Of a stretch of 22,165 nucleotides of DNA, positions 616 through 18,962 are shown in pieces. Position 1 is the stretch's first letter, and each line of letters starts with the position of its first letter. Made by a program: the position numbers and the translations under genes. The stretch is taken from positions 1 to 22,165 of the IMG/VR virus record IMGVR_UViG_3300046656_000019, one strand, 5' to 3'. This DNA is from a virus. The notes under the pieces were generated by a model. That model saw nothing but the letters and a program-made list of their open reading frames with translations, was not told where the DNA came from and ran no database searches.

Positions 616-3300
616 ATGAAGCGATTCACCGCGCGTCGTTTGCGAGCCGTGCTCGTGGGCTTCGTCATTGCCTTGGGCTTTGCCGGGCCGATATTGCCCG
701 TGCTCGGGCAATGGAGCTCGGCGCGCTTGGATGACGGTTCATGGGGCTGCGTGCACGCCCCGGAACTCTCGCAGCTCACGGCCGGCTACCCGAACTCGCA
801 GTCGACGACGACGATCGTCTGCAAGGGCTGGAACCGCCTGCTCTCGTGGATTGGCACGGCCGAGGCCGCGAACTTCCGAATCGCGGTCGGCGCCATCGTT
901 CCGGGCCCGGGCGGCGAGGTCAACACGTCTTGCCGAGACGGCAGCTGCGCACCGACGACGGTTGCGTGGACGGCGGGGCTCGCGACCGCGATGCAAGCCG
1001 TCGTGTCGCGCACGACTGGCGACGGCGGCGTCGACATCGATCTGTCGGCGTACTGCACGGGCGCGAACTGCGCGAGCGCGGTCTATCGGCTGCACACGGC
1101 CGTCACGGGCTGGTCGGTCGCCGGCTCGGGCACGAAGCATCTGCTCAACAACGGCATGTCGGTCGGCGACTGGTCGACGCTTGGCGCGCTCGTGCTCGAC
1201 GTCTGCTTCCCCAGCGCTCCGACGTGCAACGCGAGCAGCTCGTTCTCGTGGGCTTACTCGGCCGCGGGCCCGTCCGACACCACAATTCCGGATCCCGTCA
1301 CGAACCTGACTGTGACCGGCGTCAACACTAGCGAAGTCGACGTGAGCTTCAACGCGAGCATCGACCCTGACGACGGCGTTACGCGCTCGGGCATCGCGCA
1401 GTACTGCTACTACCGCAATAGCGTCTTGCTCTCGTGCGATGCCGCCTCGAGCGCGGGGCTCGTGAACGACTGGACTGGCGAGAACGTCGGCTCGCCGATG
1501 GGGACCGGATTCTGCACGCAGAGCGGGGCGTCATGGTCGTTGCGAGGACTTGGCGCCGGCGTCGAGCAGACGACCACCGATAGCTATTACGGGTGCGTTA
1601 CGTCGGTCTCTGGCGCGAGCACCGACGTAGTCGTGTCCTTCGGTGCGATCCCCAACGCTGCGACCTATAACAAATTCGGGTGCGAGTTCGTCGCGGCCGA
1701 CACGAACAACGCGGTCTCGGACGAGTTCCATGTCCTACGCATTGGCTCGACCTACTCCATCGAGTCGACACCGCGTAACAGCGTCGGAGCGGCCAGACAC
1801 ACGAACCTGAGCTCGCAGATCGGAACGACGCAACCGAACGCGCTGCAGCTTCACATCGATGCCAGCGGCTTCGATGCCAGCTATAGCTTCGATGGTGGCG
1901 CAACCTTCGTGCCCGGCGTGACGAACTACACGACCGCCGTGATTCCGACGACCAAGTACGTTCGATGCTTCGGCACGGCCACGAGCAACGGCGTGACGAT
2001 CGACATTCCGATCAATTGGATGCACGTCTCGGTCGATCCGACGATCACGAAGCAGCTCACGGGCGTTGCGTCGGGTACTGCCACATTCCAGGCTACCGCG
2101 AAGGATACGGTCGGCAACGAGGCAACCAAGCTCACCGGTGTGAGCGCGACGCCGCTCGCGCCCCCGTCCTCGCAGACGAATCTGCACGCTGGCCAGTACG
2201 CGGCGCTCGACTTCAATACCTCGAAAGCGAATCAGCTCGCGCAGATTGCGACGTATTGCAACAACTCAGCGCTCACGGGATTCAAGCTGTACGTTGCGTG
2301 GGCGCAGTTAGAGAGCGCGACGCTGGGCGACTACACCGCCGGCATAGCGTACGTACAGGACTTCGTGACCGCGGCGCACAACTGCGGCAAGTACCTCATG
2401 GTCGAGATGCGAGACCACATATTCGGGTCTCCCTATTCCTCGCCGCCGACGATCGGGCAACTGAGCCCCTACTTTCCTGCTTACCTCATGACCTCCACCT
2501 ACGGTCCGTGTTGTGGCGCAACCAACGGTTCGGGTGCGACTACGACGTATACGTACGGCGGTGTGATCGTGGCGGGAGCTGGCACGAACTCATATCCGCG
2601 ATCCGCGTCTATTGACACCTACCCGCCGGTAGTCGACCGGATGCTCGCGCTGGACAACGCCTACGGCGCGGTCTTCGACGGGCAGCTCGAATCGTTTGGG
2701 TGGACCGAGAGCGCAGACTTCTTCGTGACCAACGTAGCGGGCGGCGACTACTCAGGGAAGATCACCGGGCACAAGCGGCTCATTGCGGCGTGGGCCGCGG
2801 CCTGGCCGCACACGATGTATCGAGAGCAGCTGAACTTTCTGCAAAACGATTCGCAGATTTTGGACGTAATGAACTACTGCTTTGCTCACACGAATTGCGT
2901 AGTGGGAGGGCCTGATCCGCAGGCAGCGTCGAATCAGTCGGGGCTACAAGCGGCGGTAGTGTTCACCGGCACACGCTGCACGGGCTGTGTTGCGCATGAC
3001 TTTCGTACCGACGGGCTCTTGCTGATTGGAGAGACTCAGGATGACGGTATGGCGTTTTCCTATGCCGCAGCCGATGGCGGTGACTCCGGCACGGATCCAT
3101 TTGCCGAGTCTACGGTCGCGATTCAGACCAGCTACAAGAATACCTACCACGCGCCGTTCATGATTTGGTTTACGGGCGGCTACTCATCGCAGTACATGCT
3201 GGGCACGTTCGCGAAGGTGATCACGCAGCTCGGTGTTGATCACAGCGTCTACGCCCTGGCGTGCCCGCCGAATTTCCCTGGCGGCTGTAAGACGAACTAA
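616..3300 (+). CDS. Exported multidomain protein: split FN3, inserted beta-rich domain, C-terminal glycosidase-like domain
   Basis: This is an 894-residue protein. Residues 1-31 form a signal peptide: a basic start with RR, a hydrophobic core (AVLVGFVIALGFAG) and a plausible cleavage after VLG. Starting at ATG 616 puts this peptide at the N terminus; the open frame upstream (439-615) is Arg-rich shadow sequence. Residues 225-275 and 475-513 read as the two halves of one fibronectin type III domain (DPVTNLTVTGV... and ...TATFQATAKDTVGNEATKL), with about 200 beta-rich residues between them. Residues 520-894 resemble a TIM-barrel glycoside hydrolase, with GFKLYVAWAQLES, GKYLMVEMRD and VFDGQLESFGWTE as candidate strand ends, E692 and E698 being possible acidic residues. 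There are 24 cysteines, many in close pairs, which suggests disulfides and an oxidising location. It could be a secreted depolymerase or an adhesion protein; catalysis is inference. The ribosome site is weak. Confidence 0.7.
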   Translation: MKRFTARRLRAVLVGFVIALGFAGPILPVLGQWSSARLDDGSWGCVHAPELSQLTAGYPNSQSTTTIVCKGWNRLLSWIGTAEAANFRIAVGAIVPGPGGEVNTSCRDGSCAPTTVAWTAGLATAMQAVVSRTTGDGGVDIDLSAYCTGANCASAVYRLHTAVTGWSVAGSGTKHLLNNGMSVGDWSTLGALVLDVCFPSAPTCNASSSFSWAYSAAGPSDTTIPDPVTNLTVTGVNTSEVDVSFNASIDPDDGVTRSGIAQYCYYRNSVLLSCDAASSAGLVNDWTGENVGSPMGTGFCTQSGASWSLRGLGAGVEQTTTDSYYGCVTSVSGASTDVVVSFGAIPNAATYNKFGCEFVAADTNNAVSDEFHVLRIGSTYSIESTPRNSVGAARHTNLSSQIGTTQPNALQLHIDASGFDASYSFDGGATFVPGVTNYTTAVIPTTKYVRCFGTATSNGVTIDIPINWMHVSVDPTITKQLTGVASGTATFQATAKDTVGNEATKLTGVSATPLAPPSSQTNLHAGQYAALDFNTSKANQLAQIATYCNNSALTGFKLYVAWAQLESATLGDYTAGIAYVQDFVTAAHNCGKYLMVEMRDHIFGSPYSSPPTIGQLSPYFPAYLMTSTYGPCCGATNGSGATTTYTYGGVIVAGAGTNSYPRSASIDTYPPVVDRMLALDNAYGAVFDGQLESFGWTESADFFVTNVAGGDYSGKITGHKRLIAAWAAAWPHTMYREQLNFLQNDSQILDVMNYCFAHTNCVVGGPDPQAASNQSGLQAAVVFTGTRCTGCVAHDFRTDGLLLIGETQDDGMAFSYAAADGGDSGTDPFAESTVAIQTSYKNTYHAPFMIWFTGGYSSQYMLGTFAKVITQLGVDHSVYALACPPNFPGGCKTN

Positions 3301-5207
3301 TGCGCGCAGTCACGTTCGCACTCGCGGTTTGCGCCGCGCTGCTGGGCTTTAGCCGGCAAATCGAAGCCGCTCCGGCGCTGCGCGCGGGCACCGTCAACGC
3401 GTGCCTGGTCACCGCGCAGAACCCGACGTGCGTGCTCGGCGGGGCGGCGTCCGCTGGCGATTTGATTGTGTCATGCACCTACATCGCGTCGGGGAACATC
3501 TTCCAGAGCGCGACTACGGACAGCATCAACGGCACCTATACGGCCATCGGCACGGATGCGACTGACGCGAATCCGAATCACATCAACATTTACTACAAGG
3601 AAAACGTTAGCGCCGGCACGCCAACCATCACGACTCACCTGAACGTTTCGACGCCGAGCTACACGATCGTCGCGGCCTACAGCGGGATCGCGTCGAGCTC
3701 ATCCAAGGTCACCGCGAACAAGGTGAGCAGCTCGGGCTCGAGCACGGCGCAGACGGGTGGATCGGTTACGCCGACGGCAGCAAATCAGCTCATCGTGAGC
3801 TGCATCGGTCTATCGACTGCGGATACGTCGATCGCGCCGAACAATGGCGAGACCGAGCGCAACGAGGACGCCGGTCACCAGTTCCAGCTTCAAGACATCT
3901 TGAGCCCGAACACGAGCGCGTTCACGTCGAAGTGGACGCTTGGGGCCGCGAAGACTGCGGGCGACGTCACGGCGATATTCATGGAGCCGCCGGCCGCGTC
4001 GTTCGATTCGGTCTCGTTCGCGAAGGTCGACGGTAGCCACTACCGCATGACCTACGACACCGCGAACGCCACCAATGCGTACGTCGAGACTCTACCTGCA
4101 GGTACTGCGGACCCCAGCGCCGCCGCGCTGATCGCGGGCACGGGCGCGCACGGCACTGCGACGGAAGCTGCAACGAACTCGGCCGACACGCTCGACGTTA
4201 CGGTGAGCGATGGCACGCCGTATCCGCTCTACAAGGTTTGCGGTGTAGCGGCTGGCGGCGGCGGCAACTCTGCGGTTAGCTGCACCGACAACATCCTGCT
4301 CGATCCGCCGTCCGGCTATGCGTGGGTGACGCTTACCAGCATCGGCGTCGGTTCGTTTGCCGCGGACTACAACACCGCGTTCGATCCAGACCTGGCCGCG
4401 AACGACGTGCTCGGCATTCCGACCAACGTCAAGAAGGACGACGGCTCGACTGGCGAGGCTCTGTGCATCGGTACGGTTTCGGGCGGCGTCTGCACGCCAT
4501 CGACGGACGGCAGCGTTGGCTATCAGCCGAGCCCATCTAACGACTTCACGCGCCGGCGCGCGGTGAACTGGCTCCTGTACGACTACTCGGTCGGCGCCTA
4601 CATGACGCCCGACATCGACGCGTTTTGGTTCACGCAGAACCCGGTGTGCCCGGGTCAAGCTCAAGACTTCGTGTTCCGTACGGCGATCTCGCTCGTCACG
4701 GCGCCGAATCCCGGCAACCTCGATCTGACCGGCGAATGCACGCATCCGTACGGTGACTCGCTAACGTACTCGGAATCATCCGGCACTCGGCCGACCGGGC
4801 TCTCGTTCGCGGCGCCCGTGACGAGCGGCACCGTCGCGGACGTGGACGAGAACGAGGCCGGCGCGCTCATGACGTACGCCGCGACGAGCAACGTCGACGG
4901 CTCGGCGAGCACATTTCAGGAGAACCTTCTTCCGATCAAGACGTGGACGGTCGCGCCGGATTGCACGGCCACGCCCACGTCGGACGCAACCTGCGTGTCG
5001 TCTCTGAGTTCGCTCACGCACGGCTCGGTGACGATCGACGACTCGGGCGGCGCGATCAGCCATACCGTCGCGCGCGGGGACGTGATTTCGATGAGCCCGG
5101 CGGCCGGGCAGGAAGTCGCGCCGTTCAATACGGAAACGTTGGTGATCTCGCGCGGCGCTACGGGTGCCGGTGGCCGCTTGCGTCTTTGGCTTCGAGTGGG
5201 CCTCTAG
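3300..5207 (+). CDS. Exported beta-rich protein with Ig-like domains and a C-terminal PASTA-like segment
   Basis: This is a 635-residue protein starting at an ATG that shares its A with the preceding TAA (TAATG), so it is translationally coupled to the gene before it. Residues 1-24 are a signal peptide (hydrophobic core FALAVCAALLGF, cleavage near IEA/AP). Residues 26-230 form a Thr/Ser-rich beta domain of the kind seen in environmental secreted proteins. Residues 236-330 look Ig/FN3-like (SVSFAKVDGSHYRMTYDT). Residues 470-545 resemble a putative-Ig repeat (GDSLTYSESSGTRPTGLSF). Residues 550-619 end in GDVISMSPAAGQEVAPFNTE and LVISRG, a recognisable degenerate PASTA pattern; PASTA domains are known for binding peptidoglycan fragments. 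Thirteen cysteines, twelve in the mature part, suggest disulfides. No catalytic motif is evident. A cell-wall or surface-binding role is inferred. Confidence 0.65.
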   Translation: MRAVTFALAVCAALLGFSRQIEAAPALRAGTVNACLVTAQNPTCVLGGAASAGDLIVSCTYIASGNIFQSATTDSINGTYTAIGTDATDANPNHINIYYKENVSAGTPTITTHLNVSTPSYTIVAAYSGIASSSSKVTANKVSSSGSSTAQTGGSVTPTAANQLIVSCIGLSTADTSIAPNNGETERNEDAGHQFQLQDILSPNTSAFTSKWTLGAAKTAGDVTAIFMEPPAASFDSVSFAKVDGSHYRMTYDTANATNAYVETLPAGTADPSAAALIAGTGAHGTATEAATNSADTLDVTVSDGTPYPLYKVCGVAAGGGGNSAVSCTDNILLDPPSGYAWVTLTSIGVGSFAADYNTAFDPDLAANDVLGIPTNVKKDDGSTGEALCIGTVSGGVCTPSTDGSVGYQPSPSNDFTRRRAVNWLLYDYSVGAYMTPDIDAFWFTQNPVCPGQAQDFVFRTAISLVTAPNPGNLDLTGECTHPYGDSLTYSESSGTRPTGLSFAAPVTSGTVADVDENEAGALMTYAATSNVDGSASTFQENLLPIKTWTVAPDCTATPTSDATCVSSLSSLTHGSVTIDDSGGAISHTVARGDVISMSPAAGQEVAPFNTETLVISRGATGAGGRLRLWLRVGL

Positions 5208-5227
5208 CCGCTCATAGGAATCACACG

Positions 5228-5650
5228 ATGAAAACGTTCCATGCCGTTCTGATCTCGGTCGCTGTTGCGCTGCTCGCTTTCGCGCCTGCGCGCGAGGCAT
5301 TCGCGGGGTGCACGACCCAAGTCGTTTCGGCGGCCGGCAACTTCACTGGCTTTGCGGGCAGCTGCGCGAATACGACTGAGGTGCTCGTCACGACGGGCGA
5401 CGTCAGTCAGTACAACGCGTTCACGGTGATGTCGACGACCGGCTCGGTGCTCGTGTACGTCTCGCTCGACGGCACGAACTACTCGACTGCCGCGCTCTCG
5501 TTGCAGGACTTCGGCGCGACCACGTCCGATCCCGTGACGTCGACGACGGCGCTGCGCGTCTATCAGTTCACGGGCAAGTTCCGCCGCATCAAAGTCGTCC
5601 AGACAGGGGCGACTGCGGCGGCCGCTACGATCCTCTGCTGGGTTCTCTAA
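5228..5650 (+). CDS. Small exported protein with signal peptide
   Basis: This is a 140-residue protein. ATG 5228 is preceded by AGGAA at 5216-5220. Residues 1-26 are a clear signal peptide (MKTFHAVLISVAVALLAFAP, then AREAFA/GC). The mature part is about 114 residues, Thr/Ser/Val-rich and predicted beta, with cysteines at 28, 46 and 137. Its run of SVLVYVSLDGTNYSTAALSL resembles small beta-sandwich virion or surface proteins, but I do not recognise a family. It is the third signal-bearing gene in a row, 20 bases after the previous stop, and probably works with its two upstream neighbours. Cys28 follows FAG, but charged residues in the preceding six positions argue against a standard lipobox. 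Confidence 0.65.
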   Translation: MKTFHAVLISVAVALLAFAPAREAFAGCTTQVVSAAGNFTGFAGSCANTTEVLVTTGDVSQYNAFTVMSTTGSVLVYVSLDGTNYSTAALSLQDFGATTSDPVTSTTALRVYQFTGKFRRIKVVQTGATAAAATILCWVL

Positions 5651-5736: not shown

Positions 5737-6549
5737 ATGGCAAAGCTACTGACGTCACTTCACGGCCGCGAGATCGGTCTCACCACGGACCGTCGACTCA
5801 TCGTTCCGAAGGGTCTCGTGCTCGGCGACGAGCACAATCAGATCGCGTTCGCGGACCCGCTGCGTCAAGCGATGTTCAACGACTTCGACGGCGCGGCACG
5901 CGCGTACTCGACGACCGTCGCCGACGGCATCCTGTCGCGCAAGGGCTCGGACGGCGCGTGCGTCGATTGGACGGTAACGGCGGCGCCCGGCGGCACGGTA
6001 GTCGGCACGATCGGCAACACCACGGCGACCATGGCAGTGTCTGGCGCGATGATGGCCGGCGGCTTGAACTTCAAGCCGAACCAGGGCGATCTCGTCTTCC
6101 AGGCCCGCGTGAAGATGTCGCGCATCACTCAGATCGCGGTGTTCGTCGGGTTCACCGATCAGGTGTCGGCGCTCGAGATGCCAATTCAGTCGGCGGCCGC
6201 GGCGGACACGATCACGACCAACGCGACGGACGCGGTCGGCTTCATGTTCGACACATCGATGGCGACGGCGAAGTGGTGGCTCGTGGGCGTCAAGAACGAC
6301 GTCGACGCCACGCTGCAGAACTCGACGTTCGCGCCCGTGGCCGACACGTACGAGACGCTGCGAGTCGTGGTCGACGTGAGCGGCAACGCGTACTTCTACC
6401 GCAACGGCCTGCTCGTGGGCACGAAGCTCGCGGCCGCGTGCACCGCGACGATCGCGCTGGTCCCGACGATCGCCGGTTTCAACCGCACGACGACCGGCAA
6501 TCCGACTCTCACGGCCGACTACTGGCACGCGAGCGCGCTGCGCGCCTAG
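5737..6549 (+). CDS. Phage structural protein with concanavalin A-like fold (candidate)
   Basis: This is a 270-residue protein with a strong ribosome site (AGGAGAG, 5722-5728). The N terminus (MAKLLTSLHGREIGLTTDRR) has no signal peptide, unlike the three genes before it. From about residue 40 the sequence has the alternating pattern of a concanavalin/LamG-type beta sandwich: FQARVKMSRITQIAVFVGFT, a middle strand set with VGFMFDTS and WWLVGVKND, then YETLRVVVDVSGNAYFYRNG and a closing ADYWHASAL. Proteins of this type occur in many phage structural modules as capsid- or tail-associated decoration proteins that may bind carbohydrate. The 3' neighbour is a strong terminator after about 130 bases, so this gene ends its transcription block. 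Confidence 0.65.
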   Translation: MAKLLTSLHGREIGLTTDRRLIVPKGLVLGDEHNQIAFADPLRQAMFNDFDGAARAYSTTVADGILSRKGSDGACVDWTVTAAPGGTVVGTIGNTTATMAVSGAMMAGGLNFKPNQGDLVFQARVKMSRITQIAVFVGFTDQVSALEMPIQSAAAADTITTNATDAVGFMFDTSMATAKWWLVGVKNDVDATLQNSTFAPVADTYETLRVVVDVSGNAYFYRNGLLVGTKLAAACTATIALVPTIAGFNRTTTGNPTLTADYWHASALRA

Positions 6550-6746
6550 CCCTGTTCCAAGCGGCGAGCGGGTTCCTTTCGCGGCGGGCTGCGGCGTCAG
6601 CTCAAGAGGCCGTATGCCACGCCGGGCGCTCGCCGCGTCGGGTTCATTGACCCGGCAATGCGGCCGTCTGCAGCAAGTCCCGGGCTCGCTCGAAAGGGCG
6701 GGCTCGGGTTTTTCTTTGACCACAACCTCTCGAGGAACACCGAACC
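6550..6746 (+). other. Intergenic stretch rich in inverted repeats
   Basis: The 197 bases hold no supported gene. They contain a perfect 10-bp inverted repeat (GCGGCGAGCG 6561-6570 with CGCTCGCCGC 6627-6636, 56 bases apart). Two mutually exclusive short stems share the segment CATTGACCCGG: CGGGT/ACCCG at 6639-6643/6650-6654 and CATTG/CAATG at 6645-6649/6656-6660. A strong terminator follows. The arrangement could be the structured 3' end of the upstream transcript or a small RNA; GC-rich composition raises the chance background. Confidence 0.45.
6679..6717 (+). terminator. Strong intrinsic terminator with GAAA tetraloop
   Basis: A 13-bp stem (6679-6691 with 6696-6708, including three G-U pairs) closed by the tetraloop GAAA is followed by TTTTTCTTT. 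It separates the exported/structural block from the packaging block. The same design, a long GC stem with GAAA loop, recurs at 14682-14713. Confidence 0.88.
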
Positions 6747-7142: not shown

Positions 7143-7600
7143 AAATCCAGTGGGTTGGCGACAACCTGCCGGCGATCCAGAAAGCTCTCGCGAGTTACGG
7201 CACGGTTGAGATCAGCGATGCGTCGCGGTGCGTGCTCTCGATTCACGCGCAGGAAACCCACGGCGGCGGCTTCGTGGCCGGCTCCGCGATCCAAGTGTTC
7301 CTCGGCGAGACGATCGAAGTGCGGCGCTATGGCGGCAAGGAAGTTCACACCGATAGCGTCGGCATTCACCGTCTGCCGAACGCCGGGAATCCTGAGCAAG
7401 TCACCTGGACCGGCGAGAACGCGAAATCGGTTGCGGCGTTCGTCTTGGCGCATGACGTCCGGATCGAAAGTTTCGGCGCCGCCCTGAAACTCAAGACCCG
7501 CGACGTCGACGGCTTCGTGTTACTGCGCCGCGGCGACCGGCTGCTCAAGAACGGCGGCTGTCTGTTCATGAGCCGCGCCGGCCAGGATCACCGTGCGTGA
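7139..7600 (+). CDS. Hypothetical beta-rich protein of the packaging operon
   Basis: This is a 153-residue protein starting at GTG 7139, whose GTG overlaps the TGA of the previous gene (GTGA). The same overlap is used at the next two junctions, which supports this start over the longer open frame from 6977. The sequence is beta-rich in the first half (SAIQVFLGETIEVRRYGG) and ends in a basic segment with VLLRRGDRLLKNGGCLF. I recognise no domain, signal peptide or membrane segment. Its place directly before the small terminase subunit suggests a part in packaging or its control, but nothing in the residues proves this. Confidence 0.6.
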   Translation: MKIQWVGDNLPAIQKALASYGTVEISDASRCVLSIHAQETHGGGFVAGSAIQVFLGETIEVRRYGGKEVHTDSVGIHRLPNAGNPEQVTWTGENAKSVAAFVLAHDVRIESFGAALKLKTRDVDGFVLLRRGDRLLKNGGCLFMSRAGQDHRA

Positions 7601-8145
7601 GCGCCAACGACTCTGAGATCGAGGGCGAGCTTCTACCGCGCCAGCACGGGCTGTCGAAGTACACGCCGGAGGTCGCGCACGAGATTTGCCGACTCATGGC
7701 CGAGGAAGGGCGCACGGTGCGCTGGGTCTGTCGGCAGGACGGCATGCCGTCCTTTCGGACGGTCATGCGGTGGGCGCGCGAGAAGCCAGAGTTCGCCGAC
7801 CTGTATCGGCAGGCGCTCGTCGATCGCTACGACTTTTGGGCCGAGCAGATCATCGATATCGCGGACGATGCGAGCAACGACATCGCGGAGAGCGAGACTG
7901 CCGACGGCCGCAAGATTCAAGTCGTCAATCACGAGAACATTCAGCGCGCGCGTCTGAGGATCGATACGCGCAAGTTCGTGATGGCGACCGGAGCGCCGCG
8001 CAAGTACGGAGATCGCGTCTCGCGTGACGATGATCCTGGCGACGCGCGGACGCCGGCTCAGATCGGCAGCGACATCGAGCGCACGCGGCGGATTCTGTAC
8101 ATATTGCGGCAGGCCAAGAAACTCTCGGGCCCGGTCGCGCGGTGA
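7597..8145 (+). CDS. terS: Terminase small subunit (Sf6-like)
   Basis: This is a 182-residue protein that would recognise phage DNA and load the large terminase during packaging. Residues 21-76 form a helix-turn-helix DNA-binding region (YTPEVAHEICRLMAEEGRTV, then VCRQDGMPSFRTVMRWAREK). Residues 77-140 are helical and end in RIDTRKFVMATGAPRKYGDR, a signature of Sf6-type small terminases that mediates oligomerisation. The C-terminal tail is charged. GTG 7597 overlaps the preceding TGA (GTGA), and the stop overlaps the terL start in the same way, so both subunits are translationally coupled. Family assignment is by motif recognition and position beside terL. Confidence 0.85.
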   Translation: MSANDSEIEGELLPRQHGLSKYTPEVAHEICRLMAEEGRTVRWVCRQDGMPSFRTVMRWAREKPEFADLYRQALVDRYDFWAEQIIDIADDASNDIAESETADGRKIQVVNHENIQRARLRIDTRKFVMATGAPRKYGDRVSRDDDPGDARTPAQIGSDIERTRRILYILRQAKKLSGPVAR

Positions 8146-9767
8146 GCGAGTTCGATCGCGTTCAGGAGCTCGTCGGCAAGCTCCCGCCTGAGCTATTGGC
8201 GGAAATCGACAAGATCATCGGCGAAGAAACCGGGCACATGCCGATCGTGCCGACGCCGGGCCCGCAGCTCGATGCGTACGAGCACGAGGCGGACGAGCTC
8301 TTTTACGGTGGTTCGGCCGGCGGCGGCAAGTCGGCGCTGGCAATCGGGCTCGCGCTGAACGAGCACCACAAGTCGCTGATCATGCGCCGCTTCGTCGCGG
8401 ACGCTGAGAACTTCGCCGAGCAGGCGCTCGAGATTGTCGGACACCGCGACGGCTACAACGGCCAGCAGCATCGGCTGCGGCTGAAGGACAACCGCACGAT
8501 CCGCTGGGCGGGTTGCCCCGAGGACAAGGACAAGCAGCGGTTCAAGGGCGATCCGTACGACCTGTACGTGTTCGACGAGATACCCGACTTCCTAGAGTCG
8601 CAGTACCTGTTCATCACGGCCTGGAACCGCACGACTCGGACGGGGCAGCGCTGCCGGATCGTGGCGACCGGCAACCCGCCGACGACGCCAGAGGGCTTGT
8701 GGGTGATCAAGCGCTGGGCGCCGTGGCTGGACCCGACGCATCCGAATCCGGCCGACTCGGGCGAGCTGCGCTGGTTCGTTCGCGACGAGAACGACCGCGA
8801 TATCGAAGTCGAGGGGCCGGGCGAGTACGACGTCGGCGGCAAGAAGCTCGTCAAGTCTCGAAGCCGCACGTTCATCCGCGCGCGGCTCGAAGACAACCCG
8901 GACCTGACGGCGACCGACGATTACGAACGTGCGCTCGACGCGCTCCCGAAGGAGCTGCGCGACGCGTACCGGGATGGCCGATTCGACGCGTCGATCAAAG
9001 ACCGTCCGAATCAGATGATCCCGAGCGATTGGATCCGCGAGGCGCAATCGCGCTGGCTGCCGACGCCGCCGACTGGCGTGCCGATGTGCGCGATCGGCGT
9101 CGACGGTGCGCGCGTTCACGACGACGTGGTGCTCGCGCCGCGCTACGACGGCTACTACCCGCGGCTGACCGTGGTGCCCGGCAAGACGACGCCAGAAGGG
9201 TCCGATCTCGCCGGCCTGATCATCACGGTACGGCGTGGCGATGCGCTGCCGATCATCGACGTGATCGAGTCCACGGGCGCGCAGGCGTATGCGCACTTGA
9301 AGGACATGGGCATCGAGTCGAAGCCGTTTCGAGGCTATGACGAATCGGCGCGCATGTCGAAGGACGGCCGACTCGTGTTCGCGAACGCGCGCTCTGAAGC
9401 GTACTGGCGCTTTCGCGAGGCGCTCGATCCAGGCCAGGAAGGCGGCTCGCCGATCGCTCTTGATCCGAACGACCACGAGCTCGTCGCTGATCTCTCGGCG
9501 ATCGAGTGGACACCGTTCTCGCGCGGCGGACGAACCGGCATCCGCGCGCTCTCGAAGGAAAAAGTGATCGAGAAGCTCGGTCGCTCGCCGAACCGTGGCG
9601 ATGCCGTGGTCATGTCGTGGTTCGACGGTCCGCGTGCGGCGACGCACATGCAGGTTTGGATGCCCGATGAGCGCGTTGCGCCGGGCCTACGCGGCGGTCG
9701 CCGTGTTCGACACCCGGGCGTGAACTTGGGCCCGCGCCGCACTTCGGCGCCGCTTAGGAGAAGCTGA
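8142..9767 (+). CDS. terL: Terminase large subunit (packaging ATPase and nuclease)
   Basis: This 541-residue motor protein drives DNA into the prohead and cuts the concatemer. The N-terminal ATPase domain shows the Walker A loop GGSAGGGKS at 56-64, the Walker B motif LYVFDE at 141-146 with the catalytic Glu146, and the coupling motif ATGNPP at 175-180. The C-terminal RNase H-like nuclease has the expected acidic triad: Asp321 in IGVDGA, Asp373 in IIDVIEST and Asp487 in NRGDAVVMSW. The last 30 residues are Arg-rich. GTG 8142 overlaps the terS stop (GTGA). All key residues are present and the length is normal, so it should be active. Confidence 0.95.
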   Translation: MSEFDRVQELVGKLPPELLAEIDKIIGEETGHMPIVPTPGPQLDAYEHEADELFYGGSAGGGKSALAIGLALNEHHKSLIMRRFVADAENFAEQALEIVGHRDGYNGQQHRLRLKDNRTIRWAGCPEDKDKQRFKGDPYDLYVFDEIPDFLESQYLFITAWNRTTRTGQRCRIVATGNPPTTPEGLWVIKRWAPWLDPTHPNPADSGELRWFVRDENDRDIEVEGPGEYDVGGKKLVKSRSRTFIRARLEDNPDLTATDDYERALDALPKELRDAYRDGRFDASIKDRPNQMIPSDWIREAQSRWLPTPPTGVPMCAIGVDGARVHDDVVLAPRYDGYYPRLTVVPGKTTPEGSDLAGLIITVRRGDALPIIDVIESTGAQAYAHLKDMGIESKPFRGYDESARMSKDGRLVFANARSEAYWRFREALDPGQEGGSPIALDPNDHELVADLSAIEWTPFSRGGRTGIRALSKEKVIEKLGRSPNRGDAVVMSWFDGPRAATHMQVWMPDERVAPGLRGGRRVRHPGVNLGPRRTSAPLRRS

Positions 9768-10037: not shown

Positions 10038-11669
10038 TTGGACTCTCGAATCACATCGCTGACCCAGCGCGGCGACAAGTTGCACAGCGACAAGCTGACG
10101 CTCAACTCGCTGTACCAAGAAATCTCCGAGAACTTCTATCCCGAGCGCGCCGACTTCACGCGGACGCGGTATCTCGGCCAGGAGTTCGCGAGCGATCTCA
10201 TGTCGAGCTATCCGGTGCTCGTGCGCCGCGAGCTCGGCGATGCGTTCTCATCGATGCTGCGGCCGACCGAGCTTTCATGGTTCGAGATTACGGTCGAGGA
10301 CGACGAGGATTTGGACCGAGCGAGCCGCACGTGGCTTGAGCACGCGACTCGCATCCAGCGCCGCGCGATGTACGACCGAGTCACGCAATTCGTGCGCGCC
10401 ACGAAGCAGGGCGATCACGACTTCGCGACGTTCGGCGGCGCCGTGATCTCGAGCGAGTTCGATGCGAGCGCCGAGCGCGGCGGCGCGATGCTCTATCGCA
10501 CCTGGCATCTACGCGATTGCGCGTGGAGCGAGGGCTACAACGGCGAGATAGACGAACTTCACATCAACTGGAACCCGACGCTGCGCGAGCTCAGCAAGCG
10601 GTTCCCTGGAAAGCTCCACCAGTCCGCGCAGGACGCGCTCGCGAAAGAGCCGCTGCGCCGGATCAAGTGTCGCCGCGTGATGATGCTGGCCGACGACTAC
10701 GAGGCGCCCGGCAAGCGCTGGCCGTTCAAGTGGATCTCGGTCTACATCGACCTTGAGAACCAGCATGTGCTGCTCGAGGAATCGCTGCGCACGCGCCAGT
10801 ACGTGGTGCCGCGGTGGCAGACGGTCTCGGGTTCGCAGTACGCGTTCTCGCCCGCGACGATCGTCGGGCTGCCGGATGCGCGGCTGATTCAGGCGATGAC
10901 GCTCACGCTGCTCGAAGCGGGCGAGCAGGCCGTGCGGCCGCCGCTACTCGCAAGCGCCGACGTGATCCGCGAGGACGTCCAGAACTACGCCGGCGGCATC
11001 ACCTGGATCGACGCCGACTACGACAAGCGCAAGCAGGACGTGCTGCGCCCGCTCACCGAGGACAAGAGCGGGCTGCCGTTCGGCATGGACTTCGCAGACC
11101 GTATCGGGCACCAGCTCGCGTCGGTGTTCTACCTGAACAAGCTCACGCTGCCGCCGCCGCAAGGCGAGATGACGGCGTACGAAACGCGGCAGCGGATCGA
11201 GGAGTACCTGCGCGTCGCGCGTCCGCTCTTTGAGCCGGCCGAGACCGAGTACAACGGCGCGCTGTGTGACTCGACGTTCCAGGAACTCATGCCGCGCGGC
11301 GCGTTCGGGCCGATCACTCAGATCCCGCCGCAGATCGCCGGCCGTCAGGTGAAGTTCAAGTTCGAGTCGCCGCTTCATCAAGCGATCGAGCGACAGGACG
11401 GCGTCACGTTCCTCGAAGGCAGCCAGCTCATCACGAGCGCGATGTCGCTCGATGGCTCGGCGCGCTACATCGGCGACGTGCGCACGGCGCTGCGCGACGC
11501 GCTCCACGGCATCAAATTCAAGGGCAAGTGGATGCGAGACGTCGACGAGGTCGACAAGCTCGTCAAGCAGGCGGCTGCGCAGGAACAGGAGCAGCAGCAG
11601 GCGCTCTCCATGCAACAACGGGCATCGGCCGTTCAGCAGCTTGGAGAAGCGAGCAAGTCGCTCGCGTAG
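10038..11669 (+). CDS. Portal protein (T7 gp8-like head-tail connector)
   Basis: This 543-residue protein should form the dodecameric portal ring at the unique capsid vertex, through which DNA is packaged and ejected and on which the tail assembles. Length matches the podovirus connector family. Typical stretches are LYQEISENFYPERADFTR near residue 26, the clip/wing region around GDHDFATFGGAVISSEF (about 126-142) and, towards the end, KLTLPPPQGEMTAYETRQRI. The last 40 residues are a Gln-rich coil (AAAQEQEQQQALSMQQ). The start is TTG 10038 with GGAG at 10026-10029, eight bases upstream; there is no better start before the first conserved region. It follows the 88-residue gene by three bases. 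Confidence 0.92.
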   Translation: MDSRITSLTQRGDKLHSDKLTLNSLYQEISENFYPERADFTRTRYLGQEFASDLMSSYPVLVRRELGDAFSSMLRPTELSWFEITVEDDEDLDRASRTWLEHATRIQRRAMYDRVTQFVRATKQGDHDFATFGGAVISSEFDASAERGGAMLYRTWHLRDCAWSEGYNGEIDELHINWNPTLRELSKRFPGKLHQSAQDALAKEPLRRIKCRRVMMLADDYEAPGKRWPFKWISVYIDLENQHVLLEESLRTRQYVVPRWQTVSGSQYAFSPATIVGLPDARLIQAMTLTLLEAGEQAVRPPLLASADVIREDVQNYAGGITWIDADYDKRKQDVLRPLTEDKSGLPFGMDFADRIGHQLASVFYLNKLTLPPPQGEMTAYETRQRIEEYLRVARPLFEPAETEYNGALCDSTFQELMPRGAFGPITQIPPQIAGRQVKFKFESPLHQAIERQDGVTFLEGSQLITSAMSLDGSARYIGDVRTALRDALHGIKFKGKWMRDVDEVDKLVKQAAAQEQEQQQALSMQQRASAVQQLGEASKSLA

Positions 11670-13490: not shown

Positions 13491-14345
13491 ATGGCAGAGA
13501 CTGCATTCCAAGTCCAATACCGCCAGGACTTTATCGCGGGCTTCGAGCAGCGCGAATCGCTTCTGCGGCAATCGACTTCGACCGAGGTCGAGATCAAGGG
13601 CAACCAGGCGACGTTTCTCGTCGCGGATTCCGGCAGCGCAGCGGCGAAGACCCGCGGCGTCAACGGCCTGATCCCGGCGCGCGCGGACAACCTGACTCAG
13701 AGCACCGCGACGCTCGCCGAATGGCACGATCTCGTCCGCAAAACGTCGTTCAACATTTTCGCGAGCCAGGGCAACCAGGTCGCGATCATGCAGAAGACGT
13801 CGATGGGCGTGATCAATCGCAAGATCGATTACGACATCTTCACCGAGCTCGCGAACACCACGGTCAACGCGGGCGCGACGGCCGTCACCGCTTCGGTGGC
13901 TCTCGTCATGCGCGCGAAGACGATCCTCGGCATCAACAAGGTGCCGTGGGACTCGAACATCTTCGCGATGATCACGCCGGCCTTCGAGGCGTATCTCATG
14001 CAGACGAAGGAGTTCGCGTCGCGCGAGTACATCGGCCGCGCGCCGATGGATCAGGCGGACCCGGCGTGGCGCGACAAGCCGTTGAGCTACTACTGGCTCG
14101 GCGTGAACTGGATGGTGCATCCGGGGCTGAACGGCGTCGGCACGGCCGACGAGTACTGCTTCATGTACCACAAGACGTCGATCGGCCACGCGTACGCGAG
14201 CAGTGACATTCAGGCTCTCGCAGGCTTCAACGACGAGCAGGCGTACTCGTGGGCGCGGACGTCGCTGCCCATGGGCTCGAAGCTGCTGCAGGCGAGCGGC
14301 GCGGTCCTGATCCACCACGACGGTTCCGCGCTCGTCGCGGGCTAA
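13491..14345 (+). CDS. Major capsid protein
   Basis: This 284-residue shell protein builds the icosahedral head. The sequence resembles, from memory, the HK97-fold capsid family of BPP-1/BcepC6B-like podoviruses: MAETAFQVQYRQDFIAGFEQ at the N terminus, TRGVNGLIPARADNLTQ near residue 64, then TSMGVINRKIDYDIF, KVPWDSNIFAMITPAFEAYL and the C-terminal AYSWARTSLPMGSKLLQASG. There is a single cysteine, in contrast to the exported proteins upstream. AAGGAG lies about eleven bases before ATG 13491, a strong site as expected for the most abundant virion protein. A structured leader precedes the gene, and a decoration gene with an AGGA-rich leader follows 39 bases later. Confidence 0.9.
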   Translation: MAETAFQVQYRQDFIAGFEQRESLLRQSTSTEVEIKGNQATFLVADSGSAAAKTRGVNGLIPARADNLTQSTATLAEWHDLVRKTSFNIFASQGNQVAIMQKTSMGVINRKIDYDIFTELANTTVNAGATAVTASVALVMRAKTILGINKVPWDSNIFAMITPAFEAYLMQTKEFASREYIGRAPMDQADPAWRDKPLSYYWLGVNWMVHPGLNGVGTADEYCFMYHKTSIGHAYASSDIQALAGFNDEQAYSWARTSLPMGSKLLQASGAVLIHHDGSALVAG

Positions 14346-15931: not shown

Positions 15932-18636
15932 AGGGCAGCTCTCCGACGCTATCGTTCAACCGCGGCGTGGTGTCGCGGCTGGGACTGGCTCGGATCGACG
16001 TTCCGCGCATGCGGCTCGCGGCCGCTGTTCAACAGAACTGGATGCCGCGCGTGCTCGGCTCGATGATGCTGCGCCCGGGCACTGAGTACATCGCGGCGAC
16101 TAAGGCGAACGCGCTCGCACGCAGCATCGCGTACGTGCGTTCGGCGACCGCTCAGGCTCGTCTCGAGCTGACCGACTCGGTGATGCGCGTTCTGATCGAT
16201 GACGCGCTGGTAACGCGGCCCGCGGTTACGGCTGCGGTCTCCAACGGCAGCTTCACTACCGACATCTTTACGTGGACAGACGCATCCGATAGCGGAGGAA
16301 CTCTGAGCTGGGTCGCTCCCGGCTACTGCGAGTTCCTCGGCGACGGCACGGACTACGCGATCCTGCGCCAGCCGATCACCGTGAACGAGCCGAACGTCGA
16401 GCACGCCGTACGCGTCGTCGTTGCCCGCGGCCCGGTCCTCTTTCGCATCGGCTCGGTGGCGGGCGGCGAGGAGTACATCAGCGAGACCACGCTCGGCACG
16501 GGCACGCACTCGATCGCGTTCACGCCGACTGGCAACTTCCATATTCAGGCGTCGAGCAATCTCGACTATCCGATCTACGTCGATTCGATCACCGTCGAAG
16601 CGGCGGGCGTGCTCGAGCTGCCGACGCCGTGGGCCGAGGCCGATCTGCCGAACCTGCGCTGGACGATCTCGGCTGACGTGATCTACGTCTGCGACGGCGC
16701 TCACCAGCAACGCAAGATCGAGCGGCGCAACGCGCGCTCGTGGTCGGTCGTTCTCTACGCGCCGAACACGGGGCCGTTTCGGATCCAGAACGTCGTGGAG
16801 AGCACCACGATCGCGCCGAGCGGGCTGAGCGGCGAGGTCACGCTCACGGCCACGAAGGGCATATTCAAGTCGACCCACGTCGGCGCGCTCTTTCGCATCG
16901 CGTCGGAAGGCCAGACGGTCTCGAAGACCATCAGCGCACAGAACACGTTCTCGGACCCGATCAAGGTAGTGGGCACTGGCGAGGCGCGGCGCTTCGCGAT
17001 TCAAGCGTCCGGCACCTACTCGGCAACGTTGAGGCTGCAATCGTCGGTTGGCTCTCCCGGCAGCTGGGTCGATGTGAAGTCGTGGGCGTCGGTGAGCGTG
17101 TCGGAGTCCTATCTCGACGGGCAGGACGATCAGACGATCTACTACCGGATCGGCGTCAAGACCGGCGAGTACACGTCCGGCACCGTGGTTGCCGATCTCA
17201 ACTACGCCGCCGGCAGCATCATCGGCGTCGCGCGCGTCGTGACGTACACGAATCCGACCACGGTGCATGCCGACGTTCTCAAGGCGTTTGGCGCCACCGC
17301 AGGCTCGCCCGATTGGTGGGAAGGCGAGTGGTCCGATTACCGCGGGTGGCCGTCCGCGATCGCGCTCTTTGAGGGACGGCTGTGGCACGCGGGCCTGAGC
17401 AAGATATGGGGCTCGATATCCGATGCCTACGAAGACTTCGATGACATGTTTGAAGGCGATGCCGGCCCGATCTCGCGCAGCATCGGCGAGGGTCCGGTCG
17501 ACTCGATCCACTGGCTCCTACCGCTCGGGCGGTTGCTGTTCGGGACGGCGATCAACTCGAGCCCGATCTCGGCTGCGAAGATCGACGGCAACAATATCCT
17601 GGCCGCGCGCTCAAGCTCGTTCGATGAGCCGCTGACGCCGACGAACTTCACGCTCAAGAACAGCTCTGTGCGTGGCGTGTTCGTCGACCGCTCGCAGCAA
17701 CGGCTGTACGAGCTCGCGTACGACATTCAATCGAACGACTACACGCCGCAGGATCTCTCGGTGCTCGTGCCCGACTTGAACATGGTCGGGATTGCCGGCG
17801 TGTGCGTGCAGATGAAGCCGGACATTCGGATTCACTGCTGGCGCAACGACGGCACGGTCGGCTGTCTCGTCTTCGATCGCGCCGAGAACGTGATCTGCTG
17901 GGTCGATATCCTCACGACGGGCGAGGTCGAGGACGTTTCGGTGCTGCCCGGGCCGGTCGAGGATCAGGTCTATTACATCGTCCGGCGCACGCTGAACTCT
18001 GGCGACGTGCGCTATCACGAGAAGTGGGCGCTCGAGAGCGAGTGTACGGGCCAGCCCGAGGCGCGCCTCTGCGACTGCCACGTCATGTACGAGGGCTCGC
18101 CGGCCACCACGATCGGCAACTTGAGCCACCTAGAAGGCATGGCTGTCAACGCGTGGGGCTGGAACGAGGCGGACCCTTTTCTAGACGATGAAGACAACAT
18201 CGTCGGGCGCGATCTCGGGACGTTCATCGTGACCAGCGGCCAGATCACCGGGCTCGCCGTGGCCGTGACAAACGCGTGCGTCGGTCTCAACTACGAGGCG
18301 CTCTACAAGAGTGCCAAGCAGGCGTTCATCGAGGCGCTCGGATCGCCGCTCAATCAGATGAAGCGCGTCGTGCATCTCGGTCTCGTGCTTGTCGACACGC
18401 ACTACCAAGGCATCCGCTACGGCAGTTCGTTCGAGAAGATGTTCGACATGACGAAGTCGGAGCGGATCAAGCCGACGAGCGACGTCAAGGTGTGGGACGA
18501 ACTTGAAACGCGGCTAATGCCGATGACCGGCAGTTGGGACACGGACTCGCGCATATGCTTGAGAGCGGCGTCACCGCGGCCGGCGAACGTGCTGGCTATG
18601 ACGATCGGCCTCGAAACGAACTCAAAGGCCGCGTGA
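15928..18636 (+). CDS. Tail tubular protein B / nozzle (T7 gp12-like)
   Basis: This 902-residue protein should assemble into the hexameric nozzle of the short tail. N-terminal residues 1-55 (NRGVVSRLGLARIDVPRMRL and WMPRVLGSMMLRPGTEYIA) are characteristic of gp12-type proteins, as are the segments YRGWPSAIALFEGRLWHAGL around residues 470-489 and SIHWLLPLGRLLFGTAINSS around 524-543. Residues about 103-228 look like an inserted jelly-roll module similar to a carbohydrate-binding domain (SNGSFTTDIFTWTDASDSGG, then FRIGSVAGGEEYISETTLGT). It is somewhat longer than T7 gp12, which the insert would explain. ATG 15928 overlaps the preceding TGA. Confidence 0.9.
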   Translation: MKGSSPTLSFNRGVVSRLGLARIDVPRMRLAAAVQQNWMPRVLGSMMLRPGTEYIAATKANALARSIAYVRSATAQARLELTDSVMRVLIDDALVTRPAVTAAVSNGSFTTDIFTWTDASDSGGTLSWVAPGYCEFLGDGTDYAILRQPITVNEPNVEHAVRVVVARGPVLFRIGSVAGGEEYISETTLGTGTHSIAFTPTGNFHIQASSNLDYPIYVDSITVEAAGVLELPTPWAEADLPNLRWTISADVIYVCDGAHQQRKIERRNARSWSVVLYAPNTGPFRIQNVVESTTIAPSGLSGEVTLTATKGIFKSTHVGALFRIASEGQTVSKTISAQNTFSDPIKVVGTGEARRFAIQASGTYSATLRLQSSVGSPGSWVDVKSWASVSVSESYLDGQDDQTIYYRIGVKTGEYTSGTVVADLNYAAGSIIGVARVVTYTNPTTVHADVLKAFGATAGSPDWWEGEWSDYRGWPSAIALFEGRLWHAGLSKIWGSISDAYEDFDDMFEGDAGPISRSIGEGPVDSIHWLLPLGRLLFGTAINSSPISAAKIDGNNILAARSSSFDEPLTPTNFTLKNSSVRGVFVDRSQQRLYELAYDIQSNDYTPQDLSVLVPDLNMVGIAGVCVQMKPDIRIHCWRNDGTVGCLVFDRAENVICWVDILTTGEVEDVSVLPGPVEDQVYYIVRRTLNSGDVRYHEKWALESECTGQPEARLCDCHVMYEGSPATTIGNLSHLEGMAVNAWGWNEADPFLDDEDNIVGRDLGTFIVTSGQITGLAVAVTNACVGLNYEALYKSAKQAFIEALGSPLNQMKRVVHLGLVLVDTHYQGIRYGSSFEKMFDMTKSERIKPTSDVKVWDELETRLMPMTGSWDTDSRICLRAASPRPANVLAMTIGLETNSKAA

Positions 18637-18962
18637 CCTATCGCGTCGGCACGCACGCCGACGTCTGCGAGTGGTTCGGTAAGCTGCCGCGAGAGACGCT
18701 GCGCGCCGTCGTGATCCTGCTCGATGGGCGGCTCGCGGGCATCATCGGTCTCGGGCGCGCCGCCGCGTGGACTGAACTGTTCTCCGATCACAAGCCGGAA
18801 CTCGCGCCGCACCTGTCGAGCGTCGCGGTGTGGCGGGCCGTGAAGCTGGCGATGCGGTTCGTGAACGAGTGTCGCGCCCCTGTGTTCTCGGTCTCGAGCG
18901 ATGCGCGCTTGATGGCGCGGCTCGGCTTTCACGAGGTCAACCCCGGAATATGGCGAATCTAG
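18633..18962 (+). CDS. GNAT-like internal virion protein (T7 gp13-like)
   Basis: This is a 109-residue protein from GTG 18633, which overlaps the nozzle TGA (GTGA). An ATG at 18555 in the same frame would give 135 residues but has no ribosome site, and the extra residues look like shadow sequence. The pattern VTYRVGTHADVCEWFGKLPR, then VVILLDGRLAGIIGLGRA, and a C-terminal FSVSSDARLMARLGFHEVNP is that of a reduced GNAT N-acetyltransferase fold; no full acetyl-CoA binding loop is evident. In T7-like phages the gp13 family occupies this place between nozzle and gp14. Whether it has enzyme activity is unknown. The end overlaps the next gene by 13 bases. Confidence 0.7.
   Translation: MTYRVGTHADVCEWFGKLPRETLRAVVILLDGRLAGIIGLGRAAAWTELFSDHKPELAPHLSSVAVWRAVKLAMRFVNECRAPVFSVSSDARLMARLGFHEVNPGIWRI

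Follow-up and report, generated by a model that had tools for sequence, protein, structure and literature searches.

The window analysed here is the entire 22,165-base IMG/VR record IMGVR_UViG_3300046656_000019, which comes from an environmental phage and is likely a fragment of a longer genome. Close to its start, positions 616–5650 hold a block of three genes, A894, B635 and C140, each predicted to encode a product with a Sec signal peptide (these genes, the hairpins that flank them and the 93-aa, D270, terminase, portal and capsid genes described below all lie on the + strand). A894 (616–3300; 894 amino acids (aa), 24 cysteines, all in the mature part) begins with a predicted signal peptide at 616–708, whose cleavage site is uncertain between residues 23 and 31. 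Its start is also uncertain: the ATG at 616 has no Shine-Dalgarno sequence and a TTG at 604 is possible, but the signal peptide is kept with either. An FN3-like stretch (residues 220–271; 1273–1428) matches a 1075-aa FN3/RG-lyase-domain protein of a related phage, locus L175. The A894 and B635 reading frames overlap at TAATG. B635 (3300–5207; 635 aa, 13 cysteines, 12 of them in the mature part) carries a signal peptide and a PASTA-like C-terminal domain (5034–5204) ending in GRLRLWLRVGL. C140 (5228–5650; 140 aa, three cysteines) consists of a signal peptide (5228–5305) and a jelly-roll domain (5306–5647).

Signal peptides were called with a crude scorer of our own (not SignalP), which looks for a charged start (n), a 9-residue hydrophobic stretch (h) and an AXA-like site within about 45 residues. 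Calibration used the conserved core virion proteins of the loci surveyed here, 937 in all. A894, B635 and C140 scored 4.56, 4.16 and 4.41, respectively; none of the 937 core proteins reached 3.8. An earlier note on this DNA had proposed Sec-type signal peptides on all three products and 24 and 13 cysteines in the two large ones, against about three each in the large terminase (TerL) and the portal and one in the major capsid protein (MCP). The scores confirm the former and our counts the latter, with three cysteines in TerL, three in the portal and one in the MCP. When 45 residues were drawn from the mature body, the real score was reached 0, 1 and 3 times in 5000 for A894, B635 and C140. Shuffled real N-termini reached it 15, 186 and 38 times in 5000 (0.3%, 3.7% and 0.8%), and composition therefore explains part of the score. 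C140 was also considered as a lipoprotein, a candidate dropped by eye because R and E lie within the stretch preceding the cysteine.

Searches of 50,697 phage records, of IMG/VR patterns and of Pfam, PHROGs, NCBIfam and the PDB gave no full-length relatives of A894 or B635, and the A894 C-terminus had no match in 398 genomes in a search run without a positive control. C140 homologues, by contrast, were recovered from about 22 distinct loci and in most of these lie immediately ahead of the small terminase (TerS), the gene D270 and TerL in phages of the same kind; a 289-genome search for the family gave no match and was uninformative. Nearly all of the C140 homologues are signal-free and start exactly where the mature domain of the window C140 begins. 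Signal peptides were found only on the homologues in L171 (IMGVR_UViG_3300037457_000006) and L172 (IMGVR_UViG_3300020152_000058), which are 52–59% identical to it. In both phages C140 is the last of a run of complete genes, all with signal peptides (250, 642, 99 and 135 aa in L171; 396, 229, 265, 132 and 127 aa in L172). In signal-free phages the equivalent run lacks any signal peptide, as in L175 (1075, 172–222, 620, 129 and 119 aa).

To quantify this pattern, the genes upstream of C140 were tallied at each locus, four at most, leaving out any with an incomplete start. Signal peptides were called on nine of ten such genes where C140 itself has one, versus one of 41 where C140 is signal-free. 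The difference (p = 3e-8) held at thresholds 3.0–4.0. The lone signal-free gene in the signal-bearing modules is a 93-aa gene of the window. The lone call upstream of a signal-free C140, a 387-aa product in L178, is by eye a probable false positive, still counted against the pattern. Across all deduplicated loci, 13 pairs of adjacent signal-bearing genes were found versus 1.1 expected, and three triples versus 0.014, figures that are inflated, as some loci were picked because of such genes. Judged by these predictions, close relatives carry the block either with signals on all its genes or with none, save for an occasional gene at its edge.

A counterpart of part of B635 exists as a separate gene. 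The 132-aa signal-bearing gene just before C140 in L172 combines a W-rich start with a PASTA domain, and its C-terminus is homologous to that of B635 (8.6e-5). The GRLRLxL-type end motif shared by the two was otherwise seen only in the 99-aa gene of L171 and in one unrelated protein. B635 is therefore a fusion that includes this gene. L067 has a signal-free W-rich counterpart of the L172 gene, and L177 a weaker one.

The signal-bearing C140 occupies the place of its signal-free homologue and is not an extra gene added to the genome, as a lysogenic-conversion moron would be; it is single-copy in all five records checked that hold it. The comparisons give no support for foreign cargo: relatives have signal-free C140 homologues, and equivalent blocks, at this very position. 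Rather than a moron having been added, a normal accessory module thus appears to have been redirected from the cell interior to the exterior.

The signal-bearing modules are also rich in cysteine. Cysteines make up 1.72% of their residues, versus 0.77% in these phages' core proteins. This enrichment rests on few phages, with about half of the cysteines coming from the window alone, but a second family repeats it (see below). In signal-free modules the value is 0.82%, versus 0.79% in their core. Cysteine counts in the mature proteins of the signal-bearing modules are mostly even (24, 12, 3; 0, 6, 0, 4; 5, 0, 8, 2, 2).

The second family was met through the 642-aa protein of L171 and the 265-aa protein of L172, which have in common a domain (GPFxDSTDG) found also in a phage protein that is very widespread. 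Among 79 further loci of this family, eight have a signal peptide (two of these represent one phage, and one is L172) and 71 do not. A cysteine stands directly before the motif in five of eight distinct signal-bearing forms, L171 included, versus one of 62 signal-free forms, and the cysteine content is 1.31% versus 0.62%. In L282, L313, L323 and L351, all of which lack a homologue of the window TerL, the genes adjoining the GPFxDSTDG gene bear signal peptides as well; in L290/L291 there is directly only a single signal-bearing gene, and in L313 and L323 a signal-free boundary gene follows. Unrelated phages repeat the coupling of signals and cysteines with another, independent family. In L351 (5433–11188) the run counts six genes, all signal-bearing, and follows closely on an MCP-like gene; two of the six we take, by eye, to be beta-helix proteins.

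These results bear on the objection that the hydrophobic N-termini are uncleaved anchors or a product of chance and the proteins ordinary cytoplasmic or membrane-tethered late proteins. The scorer is crude, and the shuffled N-termini that match the B635 score lend the objection some weight. The clustering of signals in neighbouring genes, the signal peptide at the point where the homologue starts and the coupled rise in cysteines are hard to obtain by chance, and we consider this explanation highly improbable.

The history of the module was addressed with two trees. In the C140 tree the three signal-bearing forms group together (90/84; 89% of bootstrap trees). In the TerL tree the same phages never grouped, and three changes are needed. 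Since the signal-bearing C140s group while the TerLs do not, the exported module probably moves between phages. The simplest reading of these trees is that one exported module lineage moved between backbones; alternatively, signals may have been lost several times.

To place C140 among known folds, the mature part was modelled as a monomer from a 22-sequence alignment. The predicted model is all-beta, with a predicted local distance difference test (pLDDT) score of 94. Its best matches among solved structures are the C-terminal disc of XepA (Z 11.8; root-mean-square deviation 2.2 over 98 residues) and YomS (Z 11.4), the next best reaching 8.9, and identity to XepA and YomS in the structural alignment is 11–13%. 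As modelled, C140 is a XepA/YomS-type jelly roll. Ena-type disulphide-linked fibres were rejected as a match for C140: they take Foldseek ranks 6, 8 and 9, their Z of 7.5–7.8 in VIA is at background, and the L172 form has no N-terminal cysteine.

XepA is a pentamer and is reported to be exported during phage development and absent from mature particles (PMC6834076). It has also been listed, together with PBSX virion proteins, among non-classically secreted proteins that lack a signal peptide (PMC1266369). XepA (PBSX) and YomS (SPbeta) of Bacillus subtilis share the fold of C140 and are encoded by late prophage genes, and YomS adjoins the tail cassette. XepA differs from the window block in being listed as leaving the cell without a signal peptide and in having two jelly rolls, whereas each product of the trio has a predicted Sec signal and the trio has many cysteines. 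To our knowledge, no exported partner genes of XepA are known.

Domains that point to glycans are found mainly in the partners of C140 in other phages. Partner proteins in L172 and L171 match PL14 (2.7e-5) and chondroitinase B (1.3e-4), respectively, both under the Pfam cut-off. The large protein of L175 has an RGI-lyase domain just over the cut-off and FN3 over it, and L172 has a PASTA domain (1.9e-12), for which B635 gave a match under the cut-off only. In their large, variable FN3, lyase-like and binding domains and their location in the late region, modules of this type resemble phage tailspike and depolymerase modules. In the tailspikes known so far, synthesis and docking both take place in the cytoplasm and Sec signals are absent.

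Taking these lines together, we regard export of the trio's products as highly probable. With more reserve, and by a modest preference, we read 616–5650 as the exported version of an accessory module that tailed phages of this kind carry in the late region, immediately before the terminase genes. Its products would form a late, disulphide-rich, probably glycan-active complex that works off the virion. Late in infection, A894, B635 and C140 would cross the inner membrane through Sec and lose their signals. Disulphides would form in the periplasm, the host being assumed to be Gram-negative. A894 and B635 may then be the active part, and C140 the oligomeric base, of a complex that binds or cuts glycans and acts outside the cytoplasm. 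Its target would be the envelope until lysis, and capsule, matrix or cell debris afterwards. The role outside the cell that the earlier note suggested for the block has good support from the signal peptide on each product, the rise in cysteines only in signal-bearing modules and the fold of C140, which matches that of a phage protein reported as exported.

Several points weigh against this reading. A894 and B635 had no match to any glycan-active family, and the lyase matches of L171 and L172 are under curated cut-offs. For the A894 C-terminus modelled on its own, the fold prediction was of too low quality for use (pLDDT 37); our impression of a glycosidase-like barrel in this region is unproven. 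Only three phages carry a signal-bearing C140, and the family may have a role in the cytoplasm, possibly in the virion, as the position shared with signal-free homologues suggests. The extracellular finding of XepA, shared with PBSX virion proteins, may reflect lysis in part. Finally, the signal peptides were called with a crude scorer, and a Gram-negative host is assumed.

A virion role is the most serious alternative. A894, B635 and C140 may be components of a spike, turret or fibre: folding and disulphide formation would take place in the periplasm, and docking on completed capsids or tails would follow at lysis. We consider this possible, if less probable than action off the virion. The signal-bearing module replaces a signal-free one at the same place, C140 is single-copy, and the block has D270 and the terminase as neighbours in the late operon. 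The large protein of L175 matches a PHROG named major tail protein (9e-28). C140 also resembles the turret chain of HFTV1 (8qpg_TD; Z 7.3 over 90 residues), but this match is at background. The only probable homologue found for the HFTV1 turret base is the PBSX structure, and on the capsid this turret bears a deacetylase-like head that binds glycans (PMC12494034). As read here, the window block would share with HFTV1 a small jelly-roll base beside a glycan-binding or glycan-acting partner, though the fold match is weak; the turret is archaeal and a proven virion part, signal peptides are not mentioned for it (PMC12494034), and the window partners lack a deacetylase match. XepA, the closest fold, was reported absent from mature particles (PMC6834076). 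A literature search found no tailed phage that adds Sec-exported spikes after lysis. The lean towards action off the virion, as reported for XepA, follows from this absence of XepA from particles, the evidence being otherwise nearly balanced. We know of no tailed phage that adds Sec-exported spikes after lysis, and the broader proposal, that some tailed phages send all parts of a cysteine-rich appendage through Sec, fold and disulphide-bond them in the periplasm and add them to virions at or after lysis, is one we put forward tentatively. The earlier note had set a virion role aside, and here we do not follow it, as the signal-free module at the same place leaves room for late attachment to virions.

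The earlier note had placed the trio between terminators and suggested that it may have its own expression timing. Terminator-like hairpins are indeed present upstream (274–294) and downstream (6679–6708), the best two of nine found in the window (5.8 expected), but they bound a unit of five genes, not the trio alone: a coiled-coil-like 93-aa gene (318–599), A894, B635, C140 and D270. The 93-aa gene is the first after the terminator, has no signal peptide and has no homologues in the loci at E<=1e-3. L175, which lacks signal peptides, has a terminator at the equivalent place (1321–1346); the terminator is therefore not linked to export. No promoter was found for the block with the sigma-70 consensus, although the phage's promoter type may differ, and separate timing is thus not borne out. 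The start of the window holds three terminator-like hairpins within its first 300 bases (123–143, 198–216 and 274–294).

A further alternative is lysogenic conversion or superinfection exclusion, in which a coat on the host surface, or a change to it, made by the exported proteins would stop the lysogen or infected cell from adsorbing phages. Apart from the predicted export, two kinds of neighbour fit such a role: an acyltransferase-3/OafA-like gene on the opposite strand directly upstream of the exported module in L172 (3730–4785, −), and integrase-like genes just downstream of the exported blocks and upstream of the terminase genes in L313 (12732–13865) and L323 (10009–11199), all named by eye. 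However, the blocks lie in the late operon and in the late direction, with no promoter found; they replace, and do not accompany, the signal-free module; and no integrase was seen in the window, itself a fragment. We regard this role as improbable. Lom of phage Lambda is likewise encoded by a gene with a signal peptide in the late tail region (PMC12309495). It is a single outer-membrane barrel added between tail genes, whereas the window has a multi-gene module that replaces a signal-free one.

D270 (5737–6549) is signal-free and combines a conserved N-terminus (LLTSLHGR.IGL) with a variable C-terminal domain. Its homologues, found in 45 loci and typically just upstream of TerL, retain the N-terminus and have exchangeable C-terminal domains, the pattern one would predict for a virion docking peptide whose heads are swapped. 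D270 probably remains in the cytoplasm as a normal virion part. For the family, with members also in L065 (9404–9988), L171 (5580–6152), L064 (9477–9923) and others, the fixed N-terminus reads ILTSLHGRxLGL.

Downstream of this unit, from 7597 onward, lies a podovirus late region of BPP-1/HTVC010P-like type, with homologues in the order TerS-TerL-portal-scaffold-MCP-TTA-TTB. It comprises a small terminase of Sf6 type (7597–8145), TerL (8142–9767), the portal or head-tail connector (10038–11669), a scaffold-like gene (from 11995), the MCP (13491–14345), tail tubular-like genes (from 15287 and from 15928) and an internal virion protein-like gene (from 18950). This series confirms the phage structural region described in the earlier note. 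Among named phages, TerL is nearest to those of Acidovorax AP1, Bordetella BPP-1 and Limnohabitans DC33 (39–41% identity), and the portal to those of Pelagibacter phages of the HTVC010P kind. As a single query against IMG/VR, TerL gave no match, whereas the TerL alignment did; matches in named genomes are metagenome-assembled genomes or distant prophage pieces. The record of Limnohabitans phage DC33 (PQ492659.1, L003) is classed as Inoviridae, yet carries a tailed-phage large terminase (39% identity).

A small protein encoded at 18555–18962, between the tail tubular-like and internal virion protein-like genes, has homologues in six loci and is, judged by eye, presumably acetyltransferase-like. 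Two isolate-derived phages add further observations. In L042 (8408–9756), two adjacent signal-bearing genes lie just upstream of TerL and are not homologous to the window trio. In L049 (2516–8460), a gene set beside the signal-free accessory module consists of what we take, by eye, to be sugar or nonulosonate biosynthesis genes.

The late proteins of tailed phages are taken to stay cytoplasmic until lysis, except for lysis proteins and single conversion genes, and the exported phage proteins known, such as lysis proteins, Lom and XepA, are single ones. We found no report in the open-licence literature of a whole exported late block that occurs with and without signals in matched phages. Signals on a whole multi-gene block in some phages and none in close relatives are unexpected among virion genes. 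C140 with and without its signal provides natural matched pairs with which to probe the function of the block. These pairs bear on the completion of virions outside the cytoplasm and on phage action on envelope glycans before lysis. If the late-docking appendage proved true, virion assembly would be split between two compartments.

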